Positions 10,262-57,759 of a DNA stretch of 64,000 nt are shown one piece after another. The position numbers and the translations under genes were made by a program. The number at the start of each line of letters is the position of its first letter. Position 1 is the first letter of the stretch. Under the pieces are notes generated by a model. It saw only the letters and a program-made list of their open reading frames with translations. It made no database searches and was not told the DNA's origin. This stretch comes from Terebella lapidaria. Lineage: Eukaryota; Annelida; Polychaeta; Terebellida; Terebellidae. The DNA lies in contig OX424555.1 of the NCBI GenBank assembly GCA_949152475.1, positions 12,418,868 through 12,482,867 on the forward strand, given 5' to 3'.

Positions 10262-11239
10262 TCACCCATCGGTGAATCTGGTCGTGGCTTCCTGCGACGG
10301 GTCGGTGGGTTGCGTCCTCCCGTGGCCTTGGATGGAGTGATGACCACCACCTGTCCCTCTGGGGGTTGGGGTGCTCCTCCTGAGTTCGACAGGCCTCTTC
10401 TCCATCAGGTCAGGCTGCTCTAGTGTCCAGTTCCTCCACTGGGTGGAATTTTGTGTAATTGGCTCCAGCTCCTTCAGTCGCCCCTTCCAGTACCATCTTT
10501 CCCTCTCAGGCTCGTCCTTGGTTGTTTTCCCGCCATCGGGACGGATTCCTAGGTCAATCACGGCCTCGATTCCGTGAAGCTGTGCTAGGATGGTCCCCAT
10601 CAGCACGGTGCGGACTCCAGCTCCGGCGTTCATTAGTACCACTGGCACCAGGCGTCCTCGGGGTCGAACCAGGGCTCGTCCCACTACGAAGGGGTAATCC
10701 TCCTTAGGTCCTCCTGCTGGCTGCATGAGGCCCGCCATTGGAATCTCTCCCTCGTCCTTCATCAGCTTGGGGTCCACCACTATCTCAGAAAAGGGTGGCA
10801 GGACAACCGTCTCCTCCGTCACCAGTGTGTAGACAATGTCCTCGTGGCCCGAGCTCAGCGCTACGGTAGTGTCGCCCACCTGCCACTCGTCCCTCCGCAG
10901 ATCTAGTCGTCCCCCAATCTTCTGAAGTACGTTGAGCACCAGCACGCCCGAGATTCCCAACTTGGCCACCAGTACGTCCGCCGACATGAGTTGTGTGCCC
11001 AGTAAAAGTTGTACCGTCATTTCACCTCGAACCTGTACGTAGTCTACGGTTGCTGCCCGTAACCTTATTCCCGTCTGCATCATCATTGCCTCATGTTCGT
11101 CATCCAGTTGGTTGAAGAGGCACTCGTCCAGAACGGTGGAGGAGGCTCCCGTATCCACAAGCATACGAGTAACCTTCCCCATAACCTGGCACGCCGCATA
11201 CCACACCAATGTGCTTCGGGAACCGGCTGACAACGACAC
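10262..11239 (-). pseudogene. Retroelement aspartic protease ORF (gag-pol remnant)
   Basis: A 325-codon open frame. Residues about 20-45 contain LVDTGASSTVLDE, the catalytic D-T-G-A motif of retropepsins, followed by a hydrophobic flap-like segment (RAATVDYVQVRGEMTVQ) and ILVL-type strands (LGISGVLVLNVLQKIGGRL). Retropepsins cut Gag-Pol (family knowledge). The frame opens after a TGA without an ATG, consistent with translation as part of a polyprotein. The last about 150 residues are Arg/Glu/Pro rich, without recognisable RT motifs, then a stop. Length and motif are good; function is unlikely because the rest of pol is missing. Confidence 0.75.
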
Positions 11240-15931: not shown

Positions 15932-18900
15932 TCACAAATGTATGTCTAAATTAATCTTCGCTAGTGCACGTTTGAAATTTGTTGTAAACAAGGTGTGAAG
16001 ACATACATTTGTTATGCTGAACAAACAAACACATAAAACTTCACTCAAGTGCCAAATATTGCGAGAGTATGCACTCAGTGATCCCCAGGATTCTAAAATA
16101 TCCAAACAAGTGATAACAGCAACAAAAATATTGAAATTCATCAACTGACATATGATTTTTGTCTTCACGCTTCGAGCATAATGCATTTTCTTGGCCACCC
16201 TTTTCGCAGATTCTGCCATAGAACGCACGATTACCTTCTGACAAAATCCTGAAATCCCTAATGAAGTCCAAATAACAGCACGTGTCAGAATAGTGGAATA
16301 GTATAGCCATCTACCAACATTGTTTCGGATGTCAAAATAGAAACACGTAGCAAAAGTTGTTTGACCATACAGATTTTCTTCCGACTGGATAACTGGAAAG
16401 ACTGTAATAGAAGACACAACGGCCCACCCAAGAACAAGCAATAACCATAATCGTTTACCATGGGCCTTTTCGAATGGAGACGCCATAGCCTTTGCACGAA
16501 TTACAGAGAGAACAGTTAGGAAATATGAAGCAGTGCCCAGCCCGAGACCAACGATTCCAGATGACACCTTACACAAGGAGCTCCACTGCCAGTCATTGAT
16601 GACCCACACCCTTTCGTCCTTTCCCAAAGTACCGACACAACCGAGTAACACGACAAATAAACCGACGATGAACTCGGAAATGCATTGATGCACGAGAACG
16701 ACAGATGTTGGTGAATGTCTACGTCTGAAGTGCCAGTAACCAGTGATAAAAGACAATGAACTGATGATCAAACCGAGCAATAACATGGACATGCGCACGA
16801 GGCTCGAGGTCAGGTCGATTTCGCAACTGACTCGTTCTCCAGAGCGACAGTTTTTGATTCTCAGTAGGCAGCATAATGCAGGATGATCAGTGAACAAATA
16901 ATCCAAACGCGACAGCATGTCTAATAAAGCAACGTCGCTAGAAATATGCAGTAACTTGTTGTTTCGTATATCTAGCATTGATAAATTTCTTATTTCACAA
17001 CACAAAGCTTTTGCATTGAAATCAGTCAGATGGTTCCTGGATATATTCAGAGAAATCAGCGAGTGCATGCCATGCAATGCAAAATTTCCTATCACAGATA
17101 TTTCAAGATTGCTTAGATTTAAACTAACAACATTATCCAATCCAGTTAATGCAAACGCGTCAACGACTCGTATTGGGTTCCCTTCCAAATTAAGTGTCTG
17201 TAAATTCGCGAGACCATTGAACATTTCTTTCCGCAGACTGTTGATAAGATTATGTTCTAAATTTAGGATATGAAGATTGTTGAGATTTGCGAAACTGCGA
17301 CGAGGAATTCTATTCAATCCACAAAATCCTACATCTAGAATCATTAACTTATTGGTTTTCTCGTGAAACGAACTTTGGTCCAATTCTAAATGCGACACCT
17401 TAAATACTAACTGGTGCACAAACTTAAAAACAGATTGAAATACGTCGGCTACCTGTGTAGAATTACAAAACACATGAACTCCAACGCATCTACATCCTTC
17501 AGGACACTGGCCAATATCACAGTAGAGTTCATCGTCTCCACCTAGTGTGCAGTCATTTTTGCCATCACATACTTGATTTCTGTGAACACAAACTGGCTCG
17601 TACGGACATTTAAATTGCCCCGGACATTTGTGGTTGTCACAGTTTTCTTCATCCTCTCCCATCTCGCACTGGCGCTCACCATCACACACATAATTCAGTG
17701 GCAGGCAATACGAGTTGTGACATTTGAATTGACCAGAACACTGCGAGTGCGTACAGTTGCGCAGATGTGCACCATTACGACATGGCACCAACATGCCATA
17801 CTTGTCAGTGGTGTATAAGCATGTGTCCCATGTCTGGTAACACATACTAGACAACTGGGGATCACACGGCACACCTCCACCTTGACAGTCATTAAGAGTA
17901 TAACGTGGAAAGAAGTCTGTTTCCCAGGACATCGCTTCATCACTACCATCTGAGCAATCGGGAACTAAATCTCGCACGTGAGCTAATGGAATACGCTCAT
18001 CATTGTTACACAAAAAGATATTTCGAGTGTCAGATGTGCAGTTGCTTTCGTCAGAACCATCCAAGCAGTCGGGAAATAAATCACATTGATCACGTGCGAA
18101 AACGATGTCACCATTGAGACAGAGGATATTTTCATTGTTTGTGTCTCTAAATGAACAGAATAACTCATCATGTTTGCTTTCGCAGTCGGTGTGCCGATCG
18201 CACACTTTCGAGAGACTGATACAATGACCATCACACTGGTAGTAACCAGCCGAACACTCGCATCCTGGTGACGAACAGTCGGAGAAGCAAGAGCTGATCC
18301 CAGGAAGAGAAGATGAACTTCCAAGATCTGATTGTGAATTCGAATTTGAACATACATGAGAACAATACTTCTCGTCGCTCCCGTCCGAACAGTTGATTTC
18401 ACCATCACACCAACGCATCTGCGACAGACAACTACCATCGTCGCATGACGACCACATAAATGTATCATTACAGTGTTGTGATTGGTACTGTAAAGTCTGC
18501 GAACATAATACATGGGTGTATGGTAACTGGTCATCATTAGCAAATGTGATTGTTACAGGAGAAAATGAGTCCTCGATGTTTGGAATAACTTTGGAAAATT
18601 TGGACTGTTCAGTGGAAACAATATTAATTCTAATAATGATGTCAAGTGCTGTGTGATACCATCGGTTCAACAGGATGCCAAGGTCGACATTGTTCATAGT
18701 AGCAAGATTGGCGTCGAATCTCGAGCATGTTATTTCTGCCCATGATGAAGCATATTGTTCAGCTGAACAATCAACGCACTGGAACAAGCGGTAGCAGTGA
18801 ACCCCAAGTGGTGTCCAAGTTTCTGGACAGAAACCCTGTGAATGGGTCGAAACTGACTGGCGTTTGGTCCTGTTTGATACGGCACATATTGGTACAACAT

Positions 18901-21845
18901 TTGGCAAAGACATATCACAAGGGACAGGCAACCACTTGAAATACAATGCTGGTGACAGGATTGTTGAAACTACACAATTCCTTGTAGTATTGAAAGATGG
19001 TTGCAATTCAGATAACCAGCCGCCCAATGTGTCGGGGAATACATCTCTTGGCGTCTCCCCACTCGACGTTGTACCATTCACCTTGATCTTGTACTGAGGC
19101 ATGAACTCTTGGTAATTAGGAATGTTCCATGAGGAGAGGCCAAGTCGTTCTCCTGATATCCAATTAAAGTTTCGTCCATTCCCCTTTAAAGTGTGAAACA
19201 AAGGTTACAAATTAATTTTCTTCAACTTGATATAGGAATTGAAATTGGAGCAGAAACGGCATTTCTAACAGACTTATAGTGATAGCGTGTCACCTTTTCG
19301 TCTCGATGTAGTCCAAGATAGAACAACGGCAGACCCTCTGTGAGTGACGCCTCATGGCGATAGTTCTGGAATAGCACATCACGAAGTATGTTAGTTTGTA
19401 CAACATCCTTCAACGAAACTAGTTGTGAGCCTTTCCTCTCACATAGTGTTGACATCCCTCCCCAATGAATGTTGCGTTTTTTCGTAGACTCGAAGAAGAA
19501 ACAATTGTCAGCATGGCAATATTGTGAGTCATAAAAGCAGGCATTCTGTTGAGTCCGGTATGTGTTGTTGTGTTGAACAGCTTCTATTTCAATAACACAT
19601 TGAGTAGCATTATTGTGCTTTTTAATACTGAAACTGACGTCTTCTGATAACCCTGAATATAACGTGAAGCTCTTATGTGGCATTCTCGACCATATTAATC
19701 GTGATCTGTCCTCGAAATACTGTATCAGGGTATAATGTTCTGAATGACAAGAACCGATTGGTTGTACTCGCAGAATCAACTGTTGGGCACAAAATGTATT
19801 TCTCCTTGTGAAGAATCGACCTGGATACCTGCGATTCTCTTTTCCGGTGATTACAAACTTATACAAAGCTGCAACACTTGGAATTCGTATCCTGCCACAT
19901 GTTGTATAAATTATGGACGGAGTGTTTGCCCTCAGTTGAATATTTGGGCATTTCATATATTCAATAACTGCTAGCAAATGTGTTTCTGATCTCAGGTTTG
20001 TCATGTAGTATTCGAGATCAAACTGTCCTTGTATCTCCATGGAGATGTTCCCTTGTCTGATCACTGATTGGTTGAAGAACATGAAGAACTCCTCGCACGA
20101 GGCGCAGCTCCTTCTCGGGGTCATCGAGACGTTTATTTTTGTGATGATTGGATAAAATGTTTCTGCATATCTGTGGTAGTCATGAGGACTCATGTGAATG
20201 GAACATACCGCATAAGGCATGCGGTACATATTCGGAGTGAACTGTAGCCTCAGACATGAATGCTGCCTGATGTTGTCAAAGAAGATGTATTTCCGACCAG
20301 TGTTGCCTGTAATCAACTGTTCTTCAGTAGTGTACGCATTTAATGGTTCGATGTCAACCAGGTCGGACCAACCGTACTCTTGGGGTTTGGTGTAGCAGGG
20401 TTGAAGAACCCCAATGCAATCCAGATTTGATATAACACGAGCCCTCAAATAAGCTTTCTTCAATCCTGACACGTAGAACATAAGCGACAAACCTTCATTG
20501 GTGAATGTTGTTATTTCTTTACTCGTGTAATTGTTGACCCAATCGGTAAGAAGCTCCCCACACAAAGGTCCAATCTCCTGGTTAGAAATAGATGCAATGG
20601 GATTGTGCCGTTCAAGCCGTTCATCAATTATGTACAGTCCGCCATTGCTGCAGTCGGTATTCGCAACTGTGTTCAGAGTCGCCTCCTCCAATATCACACT
20701 TATGGATGTTCGATTAGCAGCCATCACCCAAGTGCAGTATAGGTAAGGTGTGATAAATTCGCCATTGTCGTTCATGTTACTTGTAGATATCATGATATGA
20801 GATTCTTCTAATGTAATATTGCAGTATTCGTCAGTGGCTGATTGATAGTTTCGTAGTACTTGATAAGCCGCTGACATGAGATTGACAACGTGCTCTTTTC
20901 CTGTTCCTGAAATTTTGACGAACAGTTGAAAGCCGACTGCGAGGAAAAAAGGATAGTATCCGTCATCAGGATTATTATCTGGTATCTCTTTGAGTAATGT
21001 ATTTGGATCTGCACTAGGTCCATTGTGTACATCAATATCGACCATTGATTTATATTGTTGATCGAATGTCAGTGTGATAGTGTTCCTCCACTCGGTTCTT
21101 ATCCACCAGGTGAAGTAATAGGAGAAATCATTGGTCTCGGGTATGTCAGCTAAATCTAGAAGTAACCCCGCGATCACTCCTGCGTAGTACGTTTCCGGCC
21201 AAAATTGCTGTGCAAAGCGAAGATATGTGTAAAAGAGCTCGAAACGATTATGCTTTTCCGACTTGATTTCAGCTGAGATTATAACATTGGTCGTTGAATA
21301 CAAAGTCCAAGGTGTTCTGATGCCACAATACCTCTTACTGATGTTCGTTTCCTGTGATCCAGCTTTATATAACTGTACATGGTCCGCGACGCAATCTTTT
21401 CCGGAATCCTCTAAGTTGAAGACTGTGAATGTCAAATTAATAGACGTATTTGGGGGAATGATTAGGTGCCATCTGTAGCTTGTATCATGATGTTGAGGTG
21501 AACTGATTTCCCCTTTGACAACCACATGACCGACAGGAGAACCTGGCTTGGTGTAGTTGGATGTTGCTGTTGTATCTGGGCCATACTTTGCTTCGTGGAA
21601 GGACATGTGTATGATATAATAGATACATTTCACATGGACGACAACGTATCGGATAAGTGATGTACTGCTGCTTGGATGTGCTGCATTTTCCAGGCACACA
21701 GCTGCCAGAGAGTCGACGTAGATGAATTCCGCAAAGTCGCTATCTTCCTGGTAGAACGACACGACATCGTGTTGGACTTCTCTTGTGTTTTCTGACCCAT
21801 GTATTATAGTCGCCATCATATTCGGCTCGGAACCGATTCTGACGC
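15932..21845 (-). CDS. GRL101-like receptor: CUB, C-type lectin, LDLa, LRR, 7TM
   Basis: Two visible exons: 21845-19270 and 19183-15932, with a predicted 86-nt intron 19269-19184. A good acceptor (cttttttgcacag) before 21845 implies upstream exons. The first exon has a CUB domain near residues 98-200 (counted from the ATG at 21819) with CVADHVQLY and YCG, further CUB-like stretches, and a C-type lectin domain from about 773. The second exon completes that lectin domain (FNWISGERL..W), has a second one (about 125-233, starting CPETWTPLGVHCYRLF), about six LDLa repeats (244-561; CSDGSDEKYC is typical), an LRR N-cap CPEGCRC, LRRs (615-770) and seven hydrophobic helices (800-1075). The family senses extracellular ligands through a relaxin-receptor-like 7TM. 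DRY is replaced by IRA and NPxxY by TNVCLH, so signalling may be atypical. No stop or frameshift is seen within the exons. Confidence 0.88.
19184..19269 (-). other. Predicted 86-nt intron within the C-type lectin domain
   Basis: The donor GTTAGA follows AAG TCT at 19270, and the acceptor ctttaaag precedes GGG at 19183. Joining keeps the frame and places HYKS before GNGRNFNW, where C-type lectin domains have their YxW-type strand. Each open frame runs only into intron here: the upstream one stops at 19222 and the downstream one has no ATG. Confidence 0.75.
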
Positions 21846-21902
21846 CTGTGCAAAAAAGAGCTGTTATGATGATTCACGGTTTTATATGATAACCATCCAT
21901 AT

Positions 21903-22787
21903 AGTGCCTGATTTATGCCAGAAAAAGAAAGAATTTAATTGTTGCGACCAAAACGCGATAACATTCTCGCCGCGACCAAAACATTCTCGCCACAGCGAAA
22001 ATCGTTGTTGCCGCGACCAATACATTTCTGCTGCAGCGAGAATAATTACCACCGGGGCGATAATTGCACTTAACTGTAAATTTTCACTGTGGCGAATAGT
22101 AAGATAATAAATAATTTGTTCTCTGAGGTGATGAAAGAAAAACGTTCTAACCAGTATGGCCATTCTCGCCGCGGTGATAATCATTTTAGCTGGTCGCGGC
22201 GAGAACAATTTCGCTGCAGCGAAAATGATTTTGGTCGCGACGATAATGTTTTTGCCGCAGCTAAAAGTATTTAATTCGCAGCGAGAATATTTTCGCTGCA
22301 ACGAAAACGTTTTGATCGCGATTTAAATTGTTTCAGTCGTCACCATTAAATTCGCGACAAAAACTTTTCAGGAAAAACGCATTATGGCATGAATGAGCCA
22401 CCGTACAAAATAGTTGATATCAAAAGTGAAGTATTTGGCTCGCAACGAAAATCATTGTTGCCGCGACCAAAACATTTTTTTCTCTTTCAGGTGATGTAGC
22501 AAAAGTGTTCGGACAAGTATGGCCTTTCTCGCGGTGGCGATAATCATTTTCGATGCAGCAAAAATGTTTCGGTAGCGACCTAAATATTAATTCCGCAACA
22601 TAAATCATTTTCGCTGCAGCGAAAATATTCTCGCCGCGACTTTAATATTAATTCTGTGGCGATAACTAGGCCCTATTTTCACTGCAGCCAAAATATTTTG
22701 GTCGCGACCGAAATGATTTCTGTCGTCGCAATTAAATTAGAAAACTCTTCAGGAAAAACTAATTATGGCATAAATCAGCCACCGTAC
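21903..22787. mobile_element. 885-bp palindrome-rich element with 8-bp target duplication
   Basis: ATCCATAT at 21895-21902 and 22788-22795 is a perfect 8-bp direct repeat. Inside it, the ends share inverted ctgatttatgcca (left 21909 onward; right tggcataaatcag ending near 22778). The body is filled with palindromic words: attttcgctgcagcgaaaat near 22608 is a perfect 20-bp palindrome, and variants of tcgccgcgacc and ctgcagcgaaaa recur every 10-25 bases. The right terminus is tandemly duplicated at about 22361-22406. No ORF fits a transposase. An 8-bp duplication fits hAT- or P-like non-autonomous elements, but I do not recognise the family. Confidence 0.85.
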
Positions 22788-22792
22788 ATCCA

Positions 22793-23055
22793 TATCTCGA
22801 TCTGACAAATCTGGGAAGACTGATGCAGATTGATTTTGTTCACCGGAGAAGGTTTGTGCTGTTGGCTAATGTCGAGTAAGTCCAACAATACATTCGAGAC
22901 GTTTGAGCTCTTCACGATAGAGCATCGTTGTTGGAGAAAAATTTGAAACTCAATAATGGTCACTTGCGTATTTTGAAACTGATGATCCAAACACATGAGA
23001 TGTGACTGATCTATGATGGATACATCGATCGAACACGTCGAATAGACACGAAAGC
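22793..23055 (-). CDS. Probable upstream exon of the receptor gene
   Basis: A minus-strand frame without stops runs from an acceptor-like site (gaaaccctctag before 23055) to the edge of the TE. It encodes FRVYSTCSIDVSIIDQ, then QVTIIEFQIFLQQRCSIV and SQICQIEIW, with spaced cysteines and beta-strand-like hydrophobic patterns as in CUB-type sequence. It lies just upstream of the receptor in the same orientation. Without the TE, ATG followed by GTTATC would give a phase-0 donor about 50 bases before the receptor's phase-0 acceptor. The TE separates them, and the donors it offers (GTACGG, GTGGCT) are in other phases. Exon status is inferred. Confidence 0.5.
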
Positions 23056-23226: not shown

Positions 23227-23529
23227 TTACGCACATGTTGGTATGCGACACTCCCGACCCCTCAGGACACAGTCTCCATAACGATAGCCCAGATCGGCAC
23301 AGCGAAATGTTGTACGGGTGCTTTCTCCGCATGTGTTCTCACAGTCAGTCACAGTCTCGACTGTTTCTATAAACACAAAAACGTAAATCAGAAAAAAGTA
23401 AATCAGAACGGAATCATATTCCTTCAATTAATAGATATAATCACCCATATTACCTCGTGCTGCAAAAGCCGTGTGGCAGAATGCCACAAGGAGCAAGACT
23501 AAAATTTGAACGCATTGGGAACACGCCAT
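23227..23529 (-). CDS. Two-exon small secreted six-cysteine protein (TSP1-like)
   Basis: Exon 1 (23529-23454) starts at ATG and encodes a signal peptide, MACSQCVQILVLLLVAF then CHTAFAA. The donor is GAG followed by GTAATA; an 87-nt intron (23453-23367) ends tttatag; exon 2 (23366-23227) continues in frame to a stop. The predicted product is 70 residues. The mature part has six cysteines, with DCENTCGES, RCADLG, DCVLRG and ECRIPTC, resembling the TCG..C..C..C core of a thrombospondin type 1 repeat without its tryptophans. Exon 2 could alternatively splice at GC followed by GTAATG and be part of the receptor's N-terminus, since that gene lies 0.2 kb downstream on the same strand and lacks a signal peptide. 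Which model holds is open. Confidence 0.6.
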
Positions 23530-30354: not shown

Positions 30355-30820
30355 AATAGGACATCGAATCAATATCCAGTATTAAGTATTCCGAGCGAAC
30401 AAAACAGGGTGCGTTATCTAATCTCATAGTCCGGGGACAGAAAGTCATATCAGGCATACGAAGTGAGACAAAAATGACAGGGAATAATGACAGGGAAACT
30501 AAAACCCTCCCAAAATGGCCATTAGGAGGTGAAATCAGGTGCTCCGAAAGAGTGAACATTTCCTGCCTCACCAGTGGCACCGGTCATGAATTCCCCCAAA
30601 ATTAACATGAAAATAGATCTAGTTGCATGGCAGACATGGATTTGGTGTATTTATCAACCCGATCATGATGACGTCCATAGAATTTCTTCAAGGCAGCTAT
30701 AAGCCTTGGTAAAACATATCCTTGTCGCAGCAGTTTAGAGCTGGGCACTTCGATAAACAAAGTCCTCATATATGCAACTAGCTCTGGAATAGCGTATAAG
30801 TTGAGAAACAAACACACCAT
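30355..30820 (-). mobile_element. 5'-truncated retrotransposon: RT C-terminus and 3' tail
   Basis: The minus strand encodes LLRQGYVLPRLIAALKKFYG, then RHHDRVDKYTKSMSAMQLDL and a stop. This is the C-terminal end of a reverse-transcriptase-type protein found in many mollusc, coral and amphioxus repeats (recollection). The 3' tail (gaattcatgaccggtgccac, ggaaatgttcactctttcgg) ends at atactggatattgattc, the same 3' end as the copies at 39314-39986 and 51186-51905. A shared 3' end with variable 5' ends is the mark of target-primed, 5'-truncated insertion. Confidence 0.75.
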
Positions 30821-30839
30821 ATGCTGGTGACATAGGAAT

Positions 30840-31934
30840 GTTGCTGATTAGAAAAGGGAAATTGACCTTGTAAAAAAATAATATGCAAACAAGCCTTGCT
30901 GCATATTTGTTATAGCTAGACTTGATATTTTTAGGCCACTCATCAACCAGATCGTGATGACGTTCGTAGCATTTCTGAACCTAGGCCGTATGAGATTAAT
31001 TTGGGAATTCTCAGATATCTGTGAGTTAAGCATTTTCTACAAGAAAGCCTTTCTGATCCATAATGATGATTTATGTTGTGTATGAATCAGAATGTTCTCT
31101 TCTTTCTGCCACTGTATAATAATTGGAAGTACTGCAAATATTGGCGAAGATGTGATCAGTGCAATGCATGTCAAATACACGCATGTCGAAAACACGACAA
31201 AAGACAACTTTAGATGGCCAGAGGTAGTAACAAAACCCAACTCTAGGTGGCACAGGGATATATTAAAGGCAGCGATTGGTTTCAGTAACATATCCTTGTC
31301 GCGGCAGTTTTTGGACTAGCTGGGCACGTCGGTGAACAGTTCTGCTAATGCGATAAGGCGTGAAACAAATTATACGTCGTACGCCGGGAGAATCATATTA
31401 ACTTAAATCATCATGTTTGTCATATAATCTAGTGGACTGGTCGGTTCCTTACCCGCAATCACTAGCTTATAGAGAAATATGTAGCGTCTTTAATTTTAAG
31501 TTCCTTGGAAAATATCAACCAAACTACGCCACGGAAAGTGGACCAGAATTTACTTGTTGGTACAGATATAACACTGTTCCAGGGCTATTTAGTCCTCCGC
31601 GTGGGAAGAAATATATTTCGGCTATGTTTCCAGAGTTAGTACAGATGTTGCATGAGTTTATCACAGTTAGTACAGATGTTGTCTGAGTTTATCATTGAAA
31701 CTTTGATACAGTTTGAATGTTTGGATTCCGCGGAGCTATAGTTTTCAAGGAACTGAAGGATAAATTAAAGAACAAGAATCGTAGCTGGTGCTAGTGCGGA
31801 CCAAAAGCATCACAAGGACTAGTGGGTACATGTATCACAATATTATGGTGTTTCGGAAAGATGATACGACCGCATGCTTCACGGGGTCCATTGGTCAGTG
31901 AGTACTTTTCATTTCCTTGTGGTCGGAATGAAGG
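30840..31934. other. No supported gene; repeat debris
   Basis: 30880-30990 resembles 49540-49640 (gcaaacaag, ttgttatagctagacttgat, actcatcaaccaga). A short tandem duplication of ttagtacagatgttg..tgagtttatca lies at 31633-31694. An 89-codon plus-strand frame at 31417-31686 is unrecognised. Confidence 0.5.
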
Positions 31935-32335: not shown

Positions 32336-33289
32336 GTAACCTATTCACTGAAGAACGTCGTGTTCGACTTAGCTACACGAACTATCAAACAGGAAACTCT
32401 TGTGAAAGTTCACGCACAAAAAAAAACGATCTGGGAGAAATGTTACGTTCGTCCATGGAACGCTTTCTATCTAATTGTGTTGTGGCCGACACATCATCAA
32501 CAACTTCTCAAAAAAAAGTTTACAGTTTATTGAAATGAAGATACATTTTGGACATGATAGATCGAATATGTTCATGTACAATATAGACCTGCTCGGAAAC
32601 TTTTTCACGAAGAGACAGTTCAAAATAAAAAGTGTACAACAATACAGATCAATTTAGTATAGTTTATTTTACATTGCATATATCAAACTGCACACATACT
32701 CACAAAGTAGTATCACTTTATACAATTTACAAGCTTCAATGCTTTTGTGCGATAAATAGATTGTGTAACACAAACCAATACCAATGATAAAAACATAAGA
32801 TTGTGAGGCATATGTGGCGAAAAATAGTACAATAATAATAAACAATTATACATGCACATGGTTAATTTCAGAAGAATTCGGATTTAATACGTCTTAGATC
32901 GGCATTCAATCGAGGCAGTACAAAGCAACGCTCTCTACATGGAAATATTCACTATAATATAATAATATAATAATTATCCGAAATAAATAAACATAAGACC
33001 GTAAAATGCCGTCAGAAATAATCAGACTCGAGAAAATAACTTCGAGAGTATTTTTCCTATGGATTTCTCAATTTCTCAGATTTCTCTTTGATTGAACTCA
33101 TTTGATCTCCTTTGGGACCAAATTTAACATTGGGATAGACTGCCAACTTTTTCAGTTTTGGAGGTAGGAGTCGAAAATTGCCAAATCAAAACCCATAAAA
33201 TGTCAACTTGATCCGACGCTTCTGAAGAAAGTGATCGACAGAAATCATTTTAGGCTTTGTGTTGAGCTTGATTATACTGCATTTTACAG
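32336..33289. other. No gene seen
   Basis: AT-rich sequence with a 60-68 codon open frame at 32327-32657 that I do not recognise. From about 33110 it contains a repeat fragment (aacattgggatagactgcca) also seen near 53590 and 53700, at the edge of the segmental duplication. Confidence 0.5.
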
Positions 33290-33372
33290 AAGTAGTTATA
33301 TTAGTTTTGATGATTTTTCTTGTGCTACTTTTGTTGTTGTTGTTTGTTGCTGTCGTTATCGTATGGCAATAG

Positions 33373-35306
33373 TTAACGCGTTTCAAATGTGACCCAAGTT
33401 GGGTATTTTCTGAAGTGCCACTCATAGCCCGGTTCTCCGCTGGCTAGAGCACATGTTCTCGTGCTGTTGTCGTAGCCTGCCATCAGACAGGCCGTGTTCT
33501 TCAAGCACAATGTTCCACACTCCACGCTACTCGAGACTCGAGGAACCTCCGACATGATCTTAGGGTAACAGTAAAAATCATTCAAGTCCGATATCTTCTG
33601 GAAATACGCAGTGTCTCCTGCAAAAAAGATCACAAAAAAGAAAGATAATAGTAATATATAATTCAAGGGTTAAAAGGTCCTAGAATCCCTAGCGCCTATT
33701 TAGTGATAGGAGATAAATTGAGGTAGGCCTTGAACATAAGGAAATGAGCGTTTGGTTTAAACTAAAGTTGTATTGTTATTACTCAGATCTATTCAGTTTT
33801 ATTACTCAAACTCGGAAAACGTCACACTATGTTTCTGGGCGAATGACACTGAACCAGCTGCCGAACGTGACCCACATTGTATCGGGATCAAGTCATGTTG
33901 TTAGTTTACCCCAGATTCAAACGGGAACCTCAACGAACTTTTGAGTCGATTACGCGTCGATTCTATATCCCGAATACCATATCAGTGTATAGAGTAGCCC
34001 TGTTCTTTTGGTTCGTCCTACATGGCGTATGGATACGTTGGTTTGAGATGGCAAAGAATGAAATCCATTGTGGCCAATCTCCACACATCAGTGAAACTCC
34101 AACCCGAGAAGTATAATGGATAATATCACAATACATGTATATTGGACAGATGTGACAATATTGGACAAATAAAATCAACATTTCATGCCTCAAATGCCGT
34201 AAGCTACTATCCATCCATGGGTAAATAATGATCTTGATGGACTCCAGCTCTGACACACATCCATACACTCACTGCACACATTTTAGTCACACTCACGGAC
34301 ATGGGAAAGTTATACGAACTACATACTTGATTCATGACTTCAAGTGAAAATTCTACGAGAAAAAATCTTCAAGAAAAATTCTACTATTCATGACTTTTGG
34401 ACGCACCAGAACCCCAACCTGACTATGACCTGACCCCAACCATGGAAATGTTGGCGGCTAGTTGGAGGATACTCGCTTGTGGCTTGTACTGATGACATTT
34501 ACATAGGTGAATATATGTGGAACTCACCTCTCTGGATGAGGTCTGTGATGTTCACTGACGCCATTTCGTACCGGACCGTCTCCGACATGTTGCAAGCGAA
34601 CGCCCACGTCGCATGGAATGTGACATTTGCGATCATTGACGACAGTTTGGCCCACATGAAATCCTGACTACAAGGTTGTGTGAACAGCTGGGTGCCTATC
34701 TGCAGCTTTCTGTCGCTCGTGTCCATCCGGCACATGTTCGGTAGTCCCACAGCCATGAACTTGAAATTAATGTAGTAGATGTGACGGAGGGCGGCCAAAG
34801 CTTCTACATTAATCGTTTCAATGTATGGGCTAGATATGACGATCTTCGTGATATGTTGTCCCATGTTTGTGAGCACGGGAAACTCTGTTAGCTCAATATC
34901 CCCCATGTTGATGTACCAAAGGTCCGGTGTACCAGACACGTCCGGGAAAGAAACGATAGGGTTCTGCTGGATGTACAGCTTCCTCAAGGCTACGAGTCTG
35001 CCGAGAATGATTGCGGGAACAATGGGGATCAAATTGTCGCTAACGTTCAGGGTCCTCAGGGTCGAAGACACGTTTTCCAGGTCGGGAAATTCTGTTATTT
35101 TGTTGCCCGAGACGTCGAAGACGAGGAGCTTCGGGTACGGTTCTAGATAGTCTACGACCGAGAGGTTATTGTTCATGACGAAAAAGTTTCTAATGCCGTT
35201 AGGTATGCCAGTATGAGGAAATTGCGTCAGTCCCAAAAGCATTGAAAGCAATTCCGTTTGCGATGTTGATGATTGCACATCCCACGACAGCAACTTTCCC
35301 AATCAT
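33373..35306 (-). pseudogene. LRR-PAN secreted protein gene, copy A (signal-peptide frameshift)
   Basis: Exon 1 (35306-34528) encodes leucine-rich repeats (NNLSVVDYLEPYPKLLVFDV, LRTLNVSDNLIPIVPAIILG, LRKLYIQQNPIVSFPDV). Its donor GAGAG followed by GTGAGT starts a 910-nt intron; the acceptor ttttttgcag leads to exon 2 (33617-33373). Phases match (1/1). Exon 2 encodes a PAN/apple-like domain (SSVECGTLCLKNTACLMAGY, then TCALASGEPGYEWHF). Compared with copy B, copy A has one extra T in the run near 35240, between the ATG at 35306 and the LRRs. The signal peptide is therefore out of frame with the rest. An internal ATG would restore the LRR frame without a signal peptide. Either this copy is a young pseudogene or the base is a homopolymer sequencing error. 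Confidence 0.75.
33618..34527 (-). other. Intron of LRR-PAN copy A
   Basis: 910 nt from GTGAGT to ttttttgcag. The matching copy B intron (56874-55908, 967 nt) has the same ends. The pyrimidine tract before the acceptor happens to read as a hydrophobic peptide in copy A, mimicking a signal peptide for exon 2. Copy B has no such reading, so it is intronic. Confidence 0.75.
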
Positions 35307-35379
35307 ATTTGGTTAGTTGGAAAAGTTGTTTGCTTATAACTTATCTGTTGAAATGGTGGCTAGAACACCATGGCTTCAA

Positions 35380-35388
35380 ATTTATAGC
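35380..35388 (-). promoter_or_regulatory. TATA box of LRR-PAN copy A
   Basis: The minus strand reads ggCTATAAATttg about 75-80 bases upstream of the ATG at 35306. The matching position in copy B (57741-57750) reads ggctatatattcgg, so a TATA-like element is kept in both copies. Confidence 0.55.
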
Positions 35389-35399
35389 CGGGACATCTC

Positions 35400-37989
35400 C
35401 TAGAAACAGTCCCCAGTCTCCACGCACTAGGCTCCCCCTACATCTTGTAATCATCGATGTTCCTTCACCCTCCAGTGCCTCGATAGCGATGACGTCCCCT
35501 ATTAACATGTTGGCTTCTCTGTTTTCTTGGTCTGCACTACATTGTCGTGATGTGAATACCAAGACAAGTCGGAAAGCAGTTAACAGAAAAATTATATATA
35601 TACCTGCGATAAGATTATATTCTACAAATGAATCGTGGCTAGCGGATTTTAAAAGTCTAAAATGACTTCACCATAATAATTGTCGCGCACCTAATCGGTA
35701 CTAAATGTTTGCTTAAAAACTGTCCTGCAGCTTGTTTGGTTTCTATCATGAGAGTATTATTGGTGTATTTGAAAGTGCCATAGAAGTTTTGGCTTTCAGG
35801 CCCTGATTTGAGAACTTGATACAATGTAATAACATGACTTCAAGAGCTCGAACGCAGCCTTATGTCCACCACTGAATGTAAAATATTGGTGCCCGTCTCG
35901 ATAATCTCGTAATTGACTAAGGATATGCCCACAATAAATGGTCTTTGGAAACAACATTTTATCAAACAGTTTGAGTTTGTTTTATGTGAATACAGGAAGT
36001 AATATGACCATGGTATATTTATCGCTTCTATAGGATCCAACAGCTTGATCGAGGTTACCTGGTGAAAGACAATAATACAGTATGCGTGTCTCAAAGTGTG
36101 CGAGTTGATCTTCGGAAACATAGCTCTTGAACATGAACTTCTATATGAGCATATATGAAGTGTGCCAGTTGGTTTATGTGAAAATTTAATTGGCAATGTA
36201 AAAATGGTGAAGGCAATGGTCAAAATAAATAGATACACTTTGATACAAGGATTAGAAATCATTTCAAGCATACCTGTGTATTTCACAGGAGCCTTTCTGC
36301 ATACCATACCACTGATTGCGAATTTTAGCCGTTATATGTCACGGATTTCAAACACCATAGATACATAAGAGATGTGGAAGTTAGCCATCAATTTCAAAGT
36401 TCATAATAAGGTATGGTGCTTGGGAACTCGTCCCGTGCGCATTCAACGAGAAACATGTTTGTCTACGTGAAAAAAAAATACAAGGATAAAGACGCACAGC
36501 GTTTGCTCAACTGACGTATCGATCAAATTTTCTGTGAAGAATCCAGAAGATGTTTTGTCAGAATGTTAAGTGGCGGACACAACGTGACTGTACGCTGAGA
36601 CCATTGCCCTCAACAGTCACGCCTGGAATAGGTTGAAAGCTCTCTCGTGTGACAGTTCATGATTAAGTTATGTATTTTTAACGTGTGCATGCACATTAAA
36701 TATATATGGGCGAAGACAACAATGGAAAAGGAATGACTGAATAAATTACGTATAGTTGGGATCTTGGTTGTGATGCCATGTCAACAAGTTTTACATGGCT
36801 TTGTACTTCATGAGCGTAATTGACCCACGGAAATGTAGTTTGCAGAGGACACTTTCTATGGAGAGCAACAAATTTTAGTTCTATGGAGAGCAACAAAAGT
36901 TACTATTAACCATTATCATCTGGAGAGCCTGACTATTTACACTTAGTGGTTCATAGACAGGTGGTTGTACTTTTGTATACACAGTAGATTTCCACCTAAT
37001 AATATTAGATAAAACTAAGATATAGTGGAGTGGTGTAATCTCTTGTAAGAAACGACCAGGATGTTCAGCTGTTGGTTTGACCATCTTCTGGAATAAAATG
37101 TGCGTTGCCATCTTGTGAAAATTTATGCTGTTTTCGTTACTTTCCTCGCAATGAAGAATTTTTAGATCTCAGTATAAATACATTCTTGATATTGTAGACT
37201 CTACCAGCTTTCAGTCCCCGAACACCTACTGCTCTTACACTACATATACATGCAGACTTCTACAGCGCCACACTACACTTTTGACAAGCATTATACATCC
37301 TCAGCCGCACACACTTACACCTCCTTAGCAACACTTGCATATATCACAACTCCACCAATCAGGACTCGACAAATACATAATACATCTTGTAAAGACGCAT
37401 GGTTCCAAGACAGACAAAGTTAGTAAGATAGTGTAAAAGTCTAACTGAAGATGAGCTACTAATTATGAATATAAATGCTACATTGTGAACTCGACTACCA
37501 TATTATAATATTGTGGCACCGGACTGTCCACAAATAAGATAGTACTTGATCATATGAAAGAGACATTGAAATTCATCGCTTGGTTGGACAATAAACGCTT
37601 GGAAAGTCACATTCGCTCTGACTTTGTACAAAGCTTAAAGACTCTATGCGATCCGTAAAAAGGTTGTGTATTCAGTCTTGATGGAGAAAACGCTACAATT
37701 GGTGCCGTGACAAGGATTCAAAGGCCATTCTTGGCTGCGACTCGACACTTATTTTTCAACTAGATGTCTGACTACAGGCCTGGGAAGACAGGAACGGTTT
37801 TGCCCTGATTCCTAATCGTAGCATCATCGGATGGAGTGGTGACGTTTCTACGAGTTGCTGATGAGGTTCAAAATCCCGATCCCCAAGCGCCCCACACCTC
37901 GAGTGTTACGCCCTGCAGGTCCTTCAAATCAAACATTCAAGCCCTAACACTCGTTCGTAGTTTTCGACGAACGATCCCCTCGAATTATC
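35400..37989. other. Duplicated non-coding upstream region (copy A)
   Basis: Collinear with about 57755-62160 in copy B minus the insertion there. A minus-strand frame at 35840-36307 is open in copy A but has a stop in copy B, so I do not call it a gene. Nothing else resembles coding sequence. Confidence 0.5.
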
Positions 37990-40948
37990 ATGACAGACAC
38001 ATCACATGACGAACGAAAAGCACTCAAAATCTTATGTGATAATTACGCCAGTACAGAAAACACCAGAAAAATTGACAACAATCAGAATGTCGCCAGATGA
38101 AGATGTCACCGACTACTCGATCCGTGCAGAACGAGCATCTACAGAGTTCAACGCTATGTGAGAAAATATCACAGACAGCCTGGTCTACGCAATACTCCGG
38201 CAGGCTTTACCAGACGACTACAAAACATTCGTCGTCACAAATACAGATGAATGAGACGAAAACCATGCAAGTAAGGAAGCACCACGGACATCAACGCACA
38301 GTACAGCTACAGCAATGGCGATGAAAAAGAACCCACAGTCTGATCGTAAACAGACACGATGCCTGTCGTGTGGAAAAAATGGCCACAAGTCCCGTAACTG
38401 TCGTGAAAAAAAAAACTGGTGTGCCAGTACTGTCAAAAACAGGGACATGTTAAAGCAGAACAAAAAAAAAAAAACGACACGAACATCAGTCAATAAACAC
38501 TCCATCTCCTACGATGATACGTACTACCCCAAACGCCATTACATAGGACTGGCAGACGGTGGATGTAGCAATGAGCTAGCAGTAGCAAAGGATGACGCGA
38601 AGTACACCATATTGGACTCACGTGGGAACATATATGACATCACACTGAAAAACGCGCTTTTAGCACCTATATTCCTGACAAGTCTGTTCTCAGTCTGAGC
38701 GGCCACAGAAGCTGGTAAAGAGGTCACTTTCAGCAAGGGATCTTGTTCTTTATACTCTGGCTCTACTTCCTACAAACACTTGCCATGTCACACGCGTGGG
38801 ATGAGGACACTCGATGAGTGACACAAAACCCTTGGACAATGACATTCTGCGACTACAGTATGTAATACCAGGGATAACAATGTCAACAACAGCAACAAGG
38901 AGGCACGTGTACAAGGTGCTCGGAGAACGAGCAGAAATGTACGCCAAAAAGCGTTTTCCATTCCATTTCCTCCATTCCAAAATGGAAAGTCCGAATGTGT
39001 AATGATGAAATCTACTGGACATTTTGCACTGTTTGCTTGCTGAGGCTGGACCTCTTAAGTCATTCTGGCAGTATGCAGTGAGACATGCACAGTACTTGCA
39101 GAACCAGAGCTACCAACGCCAGGAAAAATGACTGCCTACGAGATGTTCATTACACAGAAACCTAAGATGAGGCACATCCACCCATTTGGCGCACCATGTA
39201 CAGTCTTTGTAGAAGGACCAAAACGCACGCTTGATCGATGTAAGTATCAATCTACTACCACCAATACAACCAAACTTTGATGATGCCAACAACAAACGTA
39301 TAATACAATATTGTCGCTAAATAATCCCAAGTTTGGTGATTATTTGGATTTCATATATCCTAAGGAACTTGAAATTAAAGATACTACAGACTCCGCTAAT
39401 TTTTCCAACTATCTAGACCTGAGGTTGGAGATTGATAATGATTCTAACCTGTCAACTAGATTATATGACAAACGTGATGATTTCAATTTTTCCATAGTCA
39501 ATTTCCCTTTTCTAAGCAGCAACATTCCTATGTCACCGGCATATGGTGTGTTTGTTTCTTAACTTATATGCTATTCCAGAGCTAGTTGCAAATATGAGGA
39601 CTTTGTCTATCGATCTAAACTGCAGCGACAAGGATATGTTTTACCAAGACTTATAGCTGCGTTTAAGAAATTCCATGGACGTCATCATGATCTGGTGGAT
39701 AAATACAGCAAATCCATGTCTGCCATGCAACTAGATCTATTTTCATGTTAATTTTGGGGAATTCATGACGGGTGCCACTAGTGGGGCAGGAAATGCTCAC
39801 TCTTTCCGGAACACCTGATTCCACCTCCTAATGGCCATTTGGGGGGGTTCATGAGTTTCCCTGTCATTTTTGTTTTCTCTCACTTCGTATGCCTGATATG
39901 ACTTTCTGTCCCCGGACTATGAGATTGGATAACGGACCCTGTTTTGTTTGCTCGGAATACTTAGTACTGGGTATTGATTCCACGTCTATTGAACCAAGCC
40001 CGACCAAATAGTTTATCCAAAAACACACTGGCGTCATCAGGGGCAGACAGTGTGGTAAATGTAGTTGTTTCTACTGTAAACCTGATGGAATTAGTATACA
40101 ACTGCCCAGCAACCTATAAAAATAATTTAGAATCCGAAACAAACCCCATGGACTAGATATATGACAAGTACATAAGTACCTAATCACAAGCCAAAAGGAT
40201 AAACTTCCACGTGCGTTTCTGGCCATAACCAAAATGAATCAGGGTTGCTATGTCCTCAACCAGCCAAAAATCACTGTGACGACTTCACGAGATGTCCGTG
40301 TTCATGATCCACCAGCTTATGCAGACAGCTGAGAACCCCAACTCACATCAAGTGACAAGGCTAGTGATAACACAACAGAACCATGAGGCCAGGGTGACGA
40401 CACCTCGGGTGCTGACGAAGCACAACACCCTGGAGCCTCTCGTGAACAGGAGGAGCACATGAAGGCTGAGACTGACTCGAAGAAATACACATTGCGTACA
40501 CAGACAGAAGCCAGCATATCTACAATATTACCAATATGCAAGCAGTGTGAACTATGCGTATGCAGTAGTGTATGCCATGCATACACAATAGTGCCTATCA
40601 TGCCCAAGACAAGCAGTCCAATCTGAACAAGCTGAACAGTGGGCAGCTATAATGGATGCTGAAATGTCTGCACTCACTGCAAACGACACAGGTGATGATG
40701 TGAAATTCAAGGTTGAAATGTCACAAAAGGATATTCACAAGCTATGGACTGTGACGAAACAGTCTCACCTACAACTCGTTTCACAACCATTCACACTTTC
40801 TCCTATTAATGGCAGTGAATGGCACCAGATGGACGTGAAGTTGGTGTTCCTTAATGCACCTATTAACAAGAATATATCCACGTCCAGCAACTTCTTGGAT
40901 ATGAGTGTAAAGTTTGGTGACTCCACGATAAAGAAGTATACCCCATGA
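37990..40948 (+). pseudogene. Ty1/copia-like element, copy A: gag, zinc knuckle, integrase, RT fragments
   Basis: An ATG at 37990 begins MTDTSHDERKALKILCDNYA. After a frame change follows UBN2-type gag (DYSIRAERASTEFNAM, LRQALPDDYKTFV), zinc knuckle CLSCGKNGHKSRNC (38360-38401), a protease-like region (YIGLADGGCSNEL, DITLKNALLAPIFLTSLFSV) without the catalytic DSGA, a GAG-pre-integrase piece (RTLDE-HKTLG), an integrase C-terminal piece (SFWQYAVRHAQYLQNQSYQ, KMTAYEMF, KMRHIHPFGAPCTVF) and a start of RT (AIMDAEMSALTANDT, HQMDVKLVFLNAPI). Many stops interrupt it and most of the integrase core is deleted. A 673-bp RT fragment is inserted at 39314. No LTRs were identified. Confidence 0.8.
39314..39986 (+). 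mobile_element. RT-retrotransposon fragment inserted in copia copy A (TSD TATTG)
   Basis: TATTG at 39309-39313 is repeated at 39987-39991, and copy B has a single uninterrupted site (near 63478). The insert encodes YPKELEIKDTTDSANFSNYL, TRLYDKRDDFNFSIVNFPFL and SPAYGV. Then comes an in-frame TAA (39560-39562), then CKYEDFVYRSKLQRQGYVL and a stop at 39751, then the shared 3' tail ending tactgggtattgattccacg. It is 5'-truncated and dead. Confidence 0.85.
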
Positions 40949-41905
40949 CAGGAGTGTCACCGAATGTCCTATACATCTGCCTGCACATGTGCACCATAAC
41001 CGTAGTATTACTACTCGTGTAGTACCCCACCACGTCATAATGCTAGGGTGCTTCTCTATCTCGGAAAACCTCTTCCCTGGTCAATTAATCACCCCTATGG
41101 GTACCCCCAGACAAGTGCTATAGTTGTCTGTGGTCAGGGAGCAGAAACCCGATATTTGCATTTGATGTGAGTCAACAGTGGGAGCCGACACAGGACTAAT
41201 GCCAAGACAAACCATAGTGGTTCGGAGGTACGGCACTAAGGTAAAATTTGGTGACCCCATGGTAAAGAGGTATATCCCATTACCGGAGTGTTACCGAATG
41301 TCTTATAAACCTGCCTGCACCTGTGCACCATAACCGTGATGTTACTACTCGCGTAGCCCCACCATGTCATAATGCTACATGAGCTTACAGACAAGAATGG
41401 TCCCAAGCTCACATGTCACATGAAGAAGTCCTGGTACGGATGTATCAAATACAATCAAATACATGGAAGGTATTTTTTGTGGCATAACTCCTCTTCTCTT
41501 GTGTATATACGTATATTACATCCAATGATAAGGATCTGAATGGGAGGTTTAGGACAGGGTAAAAAAGCCAACTGGATGCCAAGTTGTCCATTTTGTTTGT
41601 GTGTACAATAAAACAGGGATCACAGGCCTTTTCGTGGTCCAGAATTTATGATCCCCGATAGAAAGACAAAGTTTGGTTAGTGCTCTCTGTGATAACATGG
41701 AAAGGGTGGGGTTAATTATTAGTACACAGATCAGTAAAAAAGCCAACTGGATGCCAAGTTGTCCATTTTGTTTGTGTGTACAATAAAACAAAAGGATCAT
41801 GGGCCTTGTTGTGGTCCAGAATTTATTATCCCCGATAGAAAGACAAAGTTTGGTTAGTGCTCCCTGTGATAACATGGAAAGGGTTGGGTAAATTAGTACA
41901 CAGAT
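40949..41905 (+). repeat. Two sets of local tandem duplications
   Basis: First set: ggagtgt-accgaatgtc, gcctgcac-tgtgcaccataa, ttactactcg and accatgtcataatgct occur at about 40947-41042 and again at 41270-41383. Second set: a unit of about 175 bp starting aaaaaagccaactggatgcc occurs at about 41560 and 41738 in direct orientation, both with caagttgtccattttgtttg and gatagaaagacaaagtttgg. No gene is seen. Confidence 0.75.
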
Positions 41906-42195
41906 CAGGAAGGCTCCCAGTCCCTGTAACTTGTGTAATAACAACAGGGTTGGTGCAAGAGGAAGGGTGGAGTGGGGGATGGGGGGCGCGAGTGGAGGGA
42001 GTGGGAAGGAGGAATAATTAACCTGTATTGATAGAGACAGTTGTAGAAACGGTTTACTGTATAGGCCATTGTCTGGTCCTGGCCTTTTTGGGGATTACAT
42101 CATGGCTGATTACACACACAATAAATACAACCGGATCAGACTATTGCCTCATTCTGGAACCAGCCTAGCTGATGATCACATCGCAAGACACAAAG

Positions 42196-46020: not shown

Positions 46021-46495
46021 GAACTGATTACTTATTTGCATACTGTATAGAACTGACCACCGCGTTTAAACCTAGTATTCAATACCTGAATATTTAATAT
46101 AATTTACTGGTGATAAATCTGACGCGTTATGATGTCCACTGCATGCAACTGTAAATACATGATGATGTCTTATGCCTGAAAACCTGATGATTGATGCATT
46201 TTGATTGGTACCGGTACATGATGATTGATGTGTGACTGTTTGATATGAATTTGGGAGTTCAATAAAATATTAAATTGACATATTGCTTTTCTCTGACTTT
46301 CCCGGTTTTTTTTAATAAACAATATTTATTTGGATTGATCAACAAGACATGCCTATATAAAGATCTTTCCGGTGAGAGGGACAAAATTAGTGCATCAAAT
46401 ATACAACAACAACAAAATTAAAAAATGAATCCACCACCACCATACAGCTGCAAGTACAATAATTACACGAACACTAACAAAACCCATTTAGTAGA

Positions 46496-48010
46496 ACATG
46501 AACTGGTTCATCAGAACAACATTCTGTATTTACAAATTCATCAATCAAAATTGTAATTGACCAGTAAGCAGTACGTGATGTCAAATATAAGAGTATTAAC
46601 AATAATAACAGTAACTGATTATAGCTAGCGATAACAAAATATTTTTGAAGACTAGGAATATACTGGCAGCCCAGAGGTCAGCCGCGGTATGCTGCCTACC
46701 CAAGGACTACCAGAAACATCCCCAATCATACACCAATAAAACCCAGACAGCTGAATATGTACTGGCTCATTATAACAACATTCTGTATTTACAAATTCAT
46801 CAATCAAAATTGTAATTGACCAGTAAGCAGGACGTGATGTCAAATATAATAGTATTAACAATAATAACAGTAACTGATTATAACTAGCGATAACAAAATA
46901 TTATTGAAGACTAGGAATATGCTGGCAGCCCAGAGGTCAGCCGCGGTATGCTGCCTACCCAAGGACTACCAGAAACATCCCCAATCATACACCAATAAAA
47001 CCCAGACAGCTGAATATGTACTGGCTCATTATAACAACATTTTGTATTTACAAATTTCATCAATCAAAATTGTAATTGACCAGTAAACAGGACGTGAGTC
47101 AAATATAATAGTATTAACAATAATAACAGTAACTGATTATAACTAGCGATAACCAAATATTGTTGATGACTAGGAACATACTGGCAGTCCAAAGGTCAGC
47201 CGCGGTATGCTGCCTACCCAAGGACTACCAGAAACATCCCCAATCATACACCAATAAAACCCAGACAGCTGAATATGTACTGGCTAATCATAACAACATT
47301 TTGTATTTACAAATTTCATCAATCAAAATTGTAATTGACCAGTAAACAGGACGTGAGTCAAATATAATAGTATTAACAATAATAACAGTACCTGATTATA
47401 ACTAGCGATAACCAAATATTGTTGATGACTAGGAACATACTGGCAGTCCAAAGGTCAGCCGCGGTATGCTGCCTACCCAAGGACTACCAGAAACATCCCC
47501 AATCATAAACCAATAAAACCCAGACAGCTGAATATGTACTGGCTCATCATAACAACATTCTGTATCTACAAATTCATCAATCAAAATTGTAATTGACCAG
47601 TAAGCAGGACGTGAGTCAAATATAATAGTATTAACAATAATAACAGTAACTGATTATAACTAGCGATAACAAAATATTGTTGATGACTAGGAACATACTG
47701 GCAGTCCAAAGGTCAGTCGCGGTATGCTGCCTACCCAAGGACTACCAGAAACATCCCCAATCATACACCAATAAAATCCAGACAGCTGAATATGTACTGG
47801 CTCATCAGAAAAAAATTCTATATTCACAAATTCATCAACCAAAATTGTTATTAACCAGTAAACAGGACGTGAGTCAAATATAATAATAATAACAATAAAT
47901 AACAGTAAATGATTATAATTAATGCTAACAAAATGTGATTAATGACTAGGAACATACTGGCAGTCCAAAGGTCAGCCGCGGCATGCTGCCAACCCAAGGA
48001 CTACCAGAAA
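46496..48010. repeat. About 258-bp satellite array, about six units
   Basis: The landmark ctggcag-cc-aggtcagcc begins at 46673, 46922, 47181, 47440, 47698 and 47957, giving spacings of 249, 259, 259, 258 and 259. Units are highly similar. Each contains a fortuitous about 60-codon open frame on the plus strand. The right edge runs straight into the end of a LINE fragment on the minus strand. Confidence 0.92.
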
Positions 48011-51185: not shown

Positions 51186-51905
51186 GGCAGCAGCTTTAAG
51201 AAATTCTATGGACGTCATCATGATCTGGTTGATACACCAAATCCATGTCTGCCATGCAACTAGATCTATTTTCATGTTGATTTTGGAATTCATGACGGGT
51301 GCCACTAGTGGGGCAGGAAGTGCTCACTCTTTCCGGAACACCTGACATCACCTCCTAATGGCCATTTTTGGGGGTTCATGAGTTTCCCTGTCATTTTTGT
51401 TTACTCTCACTTCGTATGCCTGATATGACTTTCTGTCCCCGGACTATGAGATTGGATAACGGACCCTGTTTTGTTTGCTCGGAATACTTAATAGAGCATA
51501 GGCGTATCTAGGAGGGGGGGGGGGGCACAGGGGGCACGTGCCCCCCTTTTCAGACAAAATGATGTCTTTATGCCCCCTCTTCAGAGAGACTGTGTCCCTG
51601 TTCCTCCCTGCACCGAGAGTAATATGTACCCAAAACAGGGCTAGAATGCACCAGCAAACGCCAGAGAGCGTTTAGCTTCTGGGGACCTTGATGGGCCCCA
51701 GACCCCCGGCCCCTTGGGACTCGCTGCGCTTGCGCCTCGCCAATGGTTATGTGTACCCAGAATAGGGCTAGAAAGCACCAGCAAACGCCATAAAGCGTTG
51801 GGCTTCTGGGGCCCTTAAGTGGGCCCCAGACCCCCGTCCGCTTGGGACTCGGTGCACTCGTGCCTCGCTTCTGTCGGACCCTGTACTGGGTATTGATTCC
51901 ACGCC
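51186..51905 (+). mobile_element. RT-retrotransposon 3' fragment, itself interrupted
   Basis: 51186-51491 matches the RT C-terminus (AAAL-KFYGRHHDLV region) and 3' tail of the 39314-39986 element up to cggaatactta. The last 20 bases of the tail (tactgggtattgattccacg) reappear at 51882. The segment between (51492-51881) is a later insertion. The coding part has a short deletion after gttgata. Confidence 0.75.
51492..51881. mobile_element. 390-bp insertion beginning with poly-G and GGGGGCACGTGCCCCCC
   Basis: Starts ataggcgtatctagg, then a G run and the near-palindrome ggggcacgtgcccc. It contains two imperfect tandem units (about 51635-51740 and 51755-51865) with ggctagaa-gcaccagcaaa, gcttctggggcc and cttgggactcg. 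It interrupts the RT tail between aatactta and tactggg. Class unknown. Confidence 0.65.
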
Positions 51906-55324: not shown

Positions 55325-55614
55325 TCCTTAAAAAAAAAAATACCCGTCAATGTAAAACATTGGTCACCTCTCTCTTCAAATATTTTTCAATATTTCTGTG
55401 AAAATTTTCAAACATGATTCGACCGTAAACTTTAGAGATAAAAGTGTAGATAGACGACGTCGTCGATGACGACGACGGATGATGGACGCACCACCACGGT
55501 AATAAAAATGCCAAAAAAGAGCACATAAAATTTCGATTTGATCTGACGATTCTGAACAAAACTGTGGACAAATATCATTTGTGATTTTGTGTTGACTATA
55601 TCACATTTTACAGT
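55325..55614 (-). repeat. GTTACCGT-family fragment at the duplication edge
   Basis: Contains the reverse complement of the tttatctctaaagtttac and gaaaatttt words of this family, then aaatttcgatttgatctgac. A related fragment sits at the matching edge of copy A (about 33110-33290), so the duplication boundary lies in repeat sequence. Confidence 0.55.
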
Positions 55615-55662
55615 AGAAGCTATAGTAGTAGTGTTGGCTGTTGTTGTTGTTGCTGTTTATGG

Positions 55663-57750: not shown

Positions 57751-57759
57751 GGGACACCT

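Follow-up and report, generated by a model that had tools for sequence, protein, structure and literature searches.

Results

A candidate GRL101-like receptor gene on the minus strand

The window, by which we mean the whole 64-kb stretch of DNA that was analysed, holds on its minus strand what looks like a gene for a GRL101-like receptor, judging by the predicted domains and relatives of its product. Two long minus-strand frames, 21873-19222 and 19201-15932, carry the receptor domains, for which Pfam reports a CUB domain (4.2e-10), three LDL-receptor class A stretches (4e-26) and leucine-rich repeats (1.1e-19). The second of these frames (19201-15932) has 416 related proteins; among the best 120 of the 416, most of the top ones are unnamed. 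GRL101-like receptors from Mytilus edulis and Gigantopelta aegis are among those with names, and so are many LDL-receptor-related proteins. Of the three elements of the GRL101-like set, LDL-receptor class A, leucine-rich repeats and seven helices, the first two were found in the receptor; the seven-helix model PF00001 is unreported for it at E 0.001 and is present in many of the relatives among those listed.

Five exons are predicted for this gene, all read on the minus strand. Exon 1 (23454-23529), signal-peptide-like by eye, is an open frame with GT/AG borders, and exon 2 (23235-23366), which is cysteine-rich, is an open frame whose GT/AG borders are compatible in phase. Exon 3 (22783-23055) is open and of phase 1 at both ends, and would end 4-5 nt inside the insertion described below if the donor ACG/GTGGCT is used (here and below a slash in a motif marks the exon-intron border). 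The predicted intron 3 (21846-22782, 937 nt) would then hold nearly the whole insertion. Exon 4 (19270-21845) begins at a phase-1 acceptor and encodes the CUB domain, and exon 5 (15932-19183) encodes the LDL-receptor class A stretches and leucine-rich repeats, has GRL101-like relatives and shows what appears by eye to be a hydrophobic C-terminal region. Joined through ACG/GTGGCT, the five pieces read as a single open frame 2,102 residues long, and the introns between them measure 87, 179, 937 and 86 nt. The phases and the open spliced model are shown here, and the exons and the choice of donor are predictions.

Leucine-rich-repeat frames are also found at 34499-35302 and 56846-57652, where they lie within a long duplication (33174-40508 and 55504-64000) that aligns in four pieces at 84-96% identity. 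The first duplicated copy contains a 673-bp insert (39314-39986) flanked by TATTG at 39309-39313 and 39987-39991, and the matching site in the other copy has a single TATTG (63479-63483); repeats related to this insert occur at 30355-30876 and 51195-51493. A further minus-strand frame, 10262-11239, has weak matches to aspartyl proteases, the retroviral gag type included, both of them under the Pfam cut-offs.

Borders and ends of the insertion

Between predicted exons 3 and 4 lies a segment of 885 bp (21903-22787) bounded on each side by ATCCATAT, at 21895-21902 and 22788-22795. The first-pass annotation had described a perfect 8-bp duplication here; the flanking copies of ATCCATAT are indeed present, and it is the length that needs amending, since the exact direct repeat extends to 9 bp, CATCCATAT, at 21894-21902 (left copy) and 22787-22795 (right copy), with the tenth base mismatched on either side. 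The first C of the right copy (22787) may belong to the element itself: CCGTACA is also what an internal copy of this end reads when aligned with it. With this one base shared, the duplication is either 8 bp, flanking an element of 885 bp, or 9 bp, flanking one of 884 bp.

The ends of the segment are inverted, as had been noted previously: GTGCCTGATTTATGCCAGAA on the plus strand at the left (21904-21923) pairs with GTGGCTGATTTATGCCATAA on the minus strand at the right (22763-22782) at 18 of 20 positions (90%). The right repeat, read in the sense of the gene, starts with GTGGCT, the candidate donor. A pattern derived from the ends, allowed up to three mismatches, occurs three times in the 64-kb window, always within the 885-bp element, against 0.03 in shuffled sequence. 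How often would such an arrangement come about by chance? Among 200,000 random pairs, 177 had a direct repeat of 8 bp lying 0-5 nt from both ends. In a scan of the window itself, which excluded 8-mers of fewer than three letters, inverted ends matching at 15 or more of 18 positions accompanied 11 of 7,575 direct 8-mer pairs spaced 200-3000 bp apart; two of the 11 are the element's own duplication, seven fall in its internal lattice, and two lie elsewhere (49477/51331 and 28676/29851). The pair at 49477 and 51331, a direct repeat of TTCCGGAA, ties the element's own duplication on the inverted-end score and may mark another insertion, some 1.85 kb long. We take the repeat flanking the 885-bp element to be a genuine target duplication, and the earlier view of a transposon with a perfect target duplication in a receptor gene is well supported.

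A palindromic and internally duplicated body

The body of the element is a lattice of palindromic TCGC..GCGA cores (21966-22710), much as the first-pass annotation had pictured it. We count 19 cores in the element, where 300 shuffles gave a mean of 3.0 and a maximum of 11, and the 70 other 885-bp tiles of the window hold at most 4. Eight of the 18 core-to-core spacings measure 16-22 bp and four measure 36-43 bp, and tandem periods of 20, 21 and 41 bp run through the lattice. Local palindromes number 15 (shuffles, mean 4.4 and maximum 10; other tiles, mean 3.6 and maximum 11), and a stricter definition requiring 10 of 12 arm pairs retains three centres, against a mean of 0.165 and a maximum of 2 in 200 shuffles. 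Folded as single-stranded DNA, the element reaches -167 kcal/mol, compared with a mean of -112 over 20 shuffles (z -10.4).

Superimposed on the lattice is a direct duplication on the plus strand, in which 22109-22407 repeats 22470-22788 at about 68% identity and so repeats the element's right end; a third, internal copy of the right inverted repeat lies at 22382-22401 on the minus strand, with two mismatches to the pattern. Aligned as halves, the element is identical at 211 of 403 positions. It thereby resembles a tandem dimer, a unit of about 505 bp followed by a shortened second copy. This dimer would be older than the present insertion, because its two copies differ at roughly one position in three and the target duplication is still perfect.

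Tandem repetition occurs in other parts of the window: a 259-bp unit in 5.9 copies at 95% matches (46494-48010), a 177-bp unit in two copies at 92% matches (41559-41908), and several arrays between 587 and 8082 built on a 22-25 bp unit in which CACAAATGTGAAAA or its complement occurs.

Coding capacity and copies

Thirteen stop-to-stop frames of at least 40 residues overlap the element, among them one that is mostly exon 3 and one mostly in the exon 4 region, and Pfam matches none of the 13 at E up to 1. A 146-residue frame of the element, the only one used for a protein search, drew 12 candidates, none of them at E up to 10. Within the 64-kb window there is no second copy of the element, the best match outside it being 15 nt long, and no separate empty site, the joined flanks matching only their own two halves and stretches of 10-23 nt. 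Exact pattern matches were zero for three patterns in viral contigs and for one in prokaryotic contigs, a result of little weight.

With inverted ends, a flanking repeat, a repetitive body and no Pfam match, the element is a DNA transposon of the non-autonomous sort, and its anatomy is foldback-like. Its mobility and the class of its transposase are matters that we infer.

Splice phases at the insertion

The frame of exon 4 opens at 21873, which puts base 21845 at the second codon position, so the acceptor there is of phase 1. The first-pass annotation had called it phase 0. It had held that removing the element restores a fitting donor, ATG/GTTATC; that donor is of phase 0 and out of frame, and splicing the reconstructed 48-nt intron (ATG/GTTATC...CACAG/GCG) shifts the frame to give ...IWM-ASESVPSRI and then a stop, within 10 codons. 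Nor do all donors supplied by the element fall in the wrong phase, as it had maintained. At the element's edge two GTs precede the first in-frame stop, GAT/GTACGG in phase 2 and ACG/GTGGCT in phase 1, and the latter is in frame with the acceptor. Two GTs of random phase would be expected to yield at least one in-phase donor about 5/9 of the time, so the in-phase donor of the element carries modest weight. The conclusion that the insertion breaks the gene depended on the phase error and is reversed, since the out-of-frame donor is the reconstructed one and the element itself offers an in-frame donor; possibly, a few element bases are exonised.

Support for exon 3

An open frame and matching phases are what argue for exon 3 as predicted. 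Pfam at E up to 5 reports nothing in it, and the joined piece gave the CUB domain only (residues 280-350); the two matches among solved structures, at E 0.51 and 1.7, we take as chance. A protein search with residues 1-480 returned 36 matches from 4,271 candidates, each covering between 13 and 36% of the query and lending no support to exon 3: the CUB domain is present in 36/36, and 30/36 are cubilin or CUBN by name. The motif ICQIEIW we suspected to be an F5/8-type end, an assumption that the tools did not support. Folded as a single sequence, exon 3 has a pLDDT of 61, and the rest of the window holds no other copy of it or of its flank.

Codon use separates coding from noncoding DNA poorly here. 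Exon 3 scores about 0 per codon, compared with -0.171 to 0.049 for 21 held-out receptor windows and a mean of -0.078 (maximum 0.014) for the 32 open runs of at least 75 codons in control stretches assumed to be noncoding, and the chosen frame of exon 3 is outscored by another that contains two stops.

Comparison with known elements

Elements of the hAT superfamily bear a terminal YANNG motif, and duplications in the Mutator superfamily run to about 9-11 bp. The left end of the element reads TAGTG only if one base of the duplication is counted, and its right end reads GTACG or TACGG; its duplication of 8 or 9 bp may be set beside both the 8 bp of hAT and the longer Mutator range. For maize Mu, 9 bp is reported (PMC2774946). 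Among hAT-type MITEs, the BuT2-related ones have 8-bp duplications, inverted ends of 10-25 bp and short copies of 532-927 bp (PMC3942097). The element shares with these its short inverted ends and a size within that range, and also the duplication length if its own is the 8-bp one; it differs in that its ends are not flush, the inverted repeat stopping 1 nt short of the left end and 4-5 nt short of the right one, and in its repetitive, palindromic body (PMC3942097).

Foldback-type elements appear closest to it in build. Tetris of Drosophila virilis, a foldback-type element, is described as having target duplications of 8-10 bp and no conserved ORFs, with inverted repeats of up to 1,735 bp and internal repeats of about 220 bp (PMC4079207). 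Tetris and the element are alike in being non-autonomous, internally repetitive and self-complementary and in lacking conserved ORFs, and the 8-9 bp duplication fits the Tetris range; unlike Tetris, the element has ends that are well conserved over 20 bp only, its halves being as divergent as noted above (PMC4079207). Galileo, of the P superfamily, comes near it in another respect. Galileo is reported to carry internal tandem repeats, which in one subfamily or more contain secondary binding sites, and to make 7- to 8-bp duplications with the target consensus GTATTAC or GTANTAC (PMC4168063, PMC3573991), and the tandem repeats inside its ends have been proposed to hold additional transposase-binding sites (PMC3573991). 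Internal repeats are common to both, and so is the duplication length if that of the element is 8 bp; the element's target, in contrast to the published consensus, is CATCCATAT, and no transposase link is seen (PMC4168063, PMC3573991). By analogy, the palindromic array of the element may provide extra transposase-binding sites. The CMITE elements of corals are MITEs of about 100 bp that can form tandem copies and duplicate TTAA (PMC2872659); the tandem copies are a likeness, and the TTAA duplication and the small size are differences (PMC2872659).

Introners are a further point of comparison. Many of them are DNA-transposon-like, with duplications and inverted ends, and can supply a splice site, and in some described cases the transcript gained bases (PMC9860276). 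Whereas introners, in that account, create introns in many genes, the element is seen as a single copy in the window and represents one insertion, which seems to have entered an existing intron or landed next to it, supplying a donor at most (PMC9860276). An introner inserted into continuous coding sequence is rejected in the present gene model, in which the exon 4 frame is interrupted by a stop between the element and 21845, so that, given this model, the intron was already there. On a word-based comparison with the literature, the element is best filed, for now, as an unnamed member of the broad kind of non-autonomous DNA transposons, with no superfamily assigned.

Discussion

The reading that we prefer, with a probability of about 0.7 for its two splicing variants jointly, is that an element of about 885 bp was inserted by cut-and-paste transposition into a receptor gene that can still be spliced. 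A transposase encoded elsewhere would have recognised the element's ends and inserted it, with a stagger of 8-9 bp, between exons 3 and 4 of the minus-strand GRL101-like receptor, duplicating 8-9 bp of the target, and the element would now make up most of intron 3. In one variant, splicing would use the donor ACG/GTGGCT in the element's end, and a few element-derived bases would join exon 3; in the other it would use the upstream donor TTT/GTCAGA (22807/22806), leaving the whole element intronic. Removal through either in-phase donor is the likely reason why the insertion was tolerated, and it is probably an ordinary insertion, not a gene-breaking one.

The second variant has a stricter form, in which the element lies within an older intron of 68 nt (a length given by arithmetic on the empty site) that begins at TTT/GTCAGA, and splicing ignores it. 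We regard this, taken alone, as a tentative possibility, less likely than not. This donor is of phase 1, as is the acceptor at 21845, and of the 17 GTs listed for the reconstructed empty site only three are of phase 1, TTT/GTCAGA being the nearest to the insertion; it scores low, however, at -3.9 against -0.4 for ACG/GTGGCT, on general consensus frequencies, and its use would shift the segment that translates as QIEIWM into the intron.

It is also conceivable, and in our judgement unlikely, that exons 1-3 as drawn are foreign to the receptor and that the DNA around the element is intergenic or belongs to an unrelated intron. Such a reading would account for the want of a homologue or domain for exon 3 in Pfam, solved structures and the protein search, for its near-zero score in codon use, a poor discriminator, and for the failure of exon 3 and its flank to recur in the window. 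It fits less well with the signal-peptide-like (by eye) and cysteine-rich exons upstream, whose phases match, and with the single open frame given by all five pieces.

Could the insertion be two events instead of one? Two nested or tandem elements, a 505-bp unit (21903-22407) and a truncated one (22408-22788), would be compatible with the other readings, and the right end is repeated at 22382-22407 and both units align. We consider this doubtful, because the target duplication brackets the entire 885 bp and because the duplicated parts share no more than about 68% identity, which suggests a dimer that probably predates the insertion and moved as one piece. That the receptor lost its donor to the insertion and the allele is now broken, the case preferred by the first-pass annotation, is improbable: a GT does immediately follow the duplicated target in the reconstructed empty site, and the exon 3 frame does meet a stop shortly past the element's edge, but the supposed donor is of phase 0 and the acceptor of phase 1, for which reason donor loss is ruled out as the leading reading, the spliced product stops within 10 codons, and in-phase donors are still present alongside the element.

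Under the preferred reading of a tolerated insertion, what might such an element mean for its host and its family? Non-autonomous transposons that carry internal repeats are common, and the palindrome lattice could be interpreted as a putative array of transposase-binding or hairpin-forming sites. A clean duplication at a predicted exon-intron border offers a setting for asking whether the end of a transposon can replace a splice donor. More speculatively, and with a low probability, the element's end may have captured the receptor's 5' splice site, with the cut falling 4-5 nt inside the transposon, the intron border moved and codons added. If so, every insertion of the family in this orientation would bring the same end and its latent donor with it, and the family would be an animal one that is introner-like and donor-carrying and has a foldback-like body.
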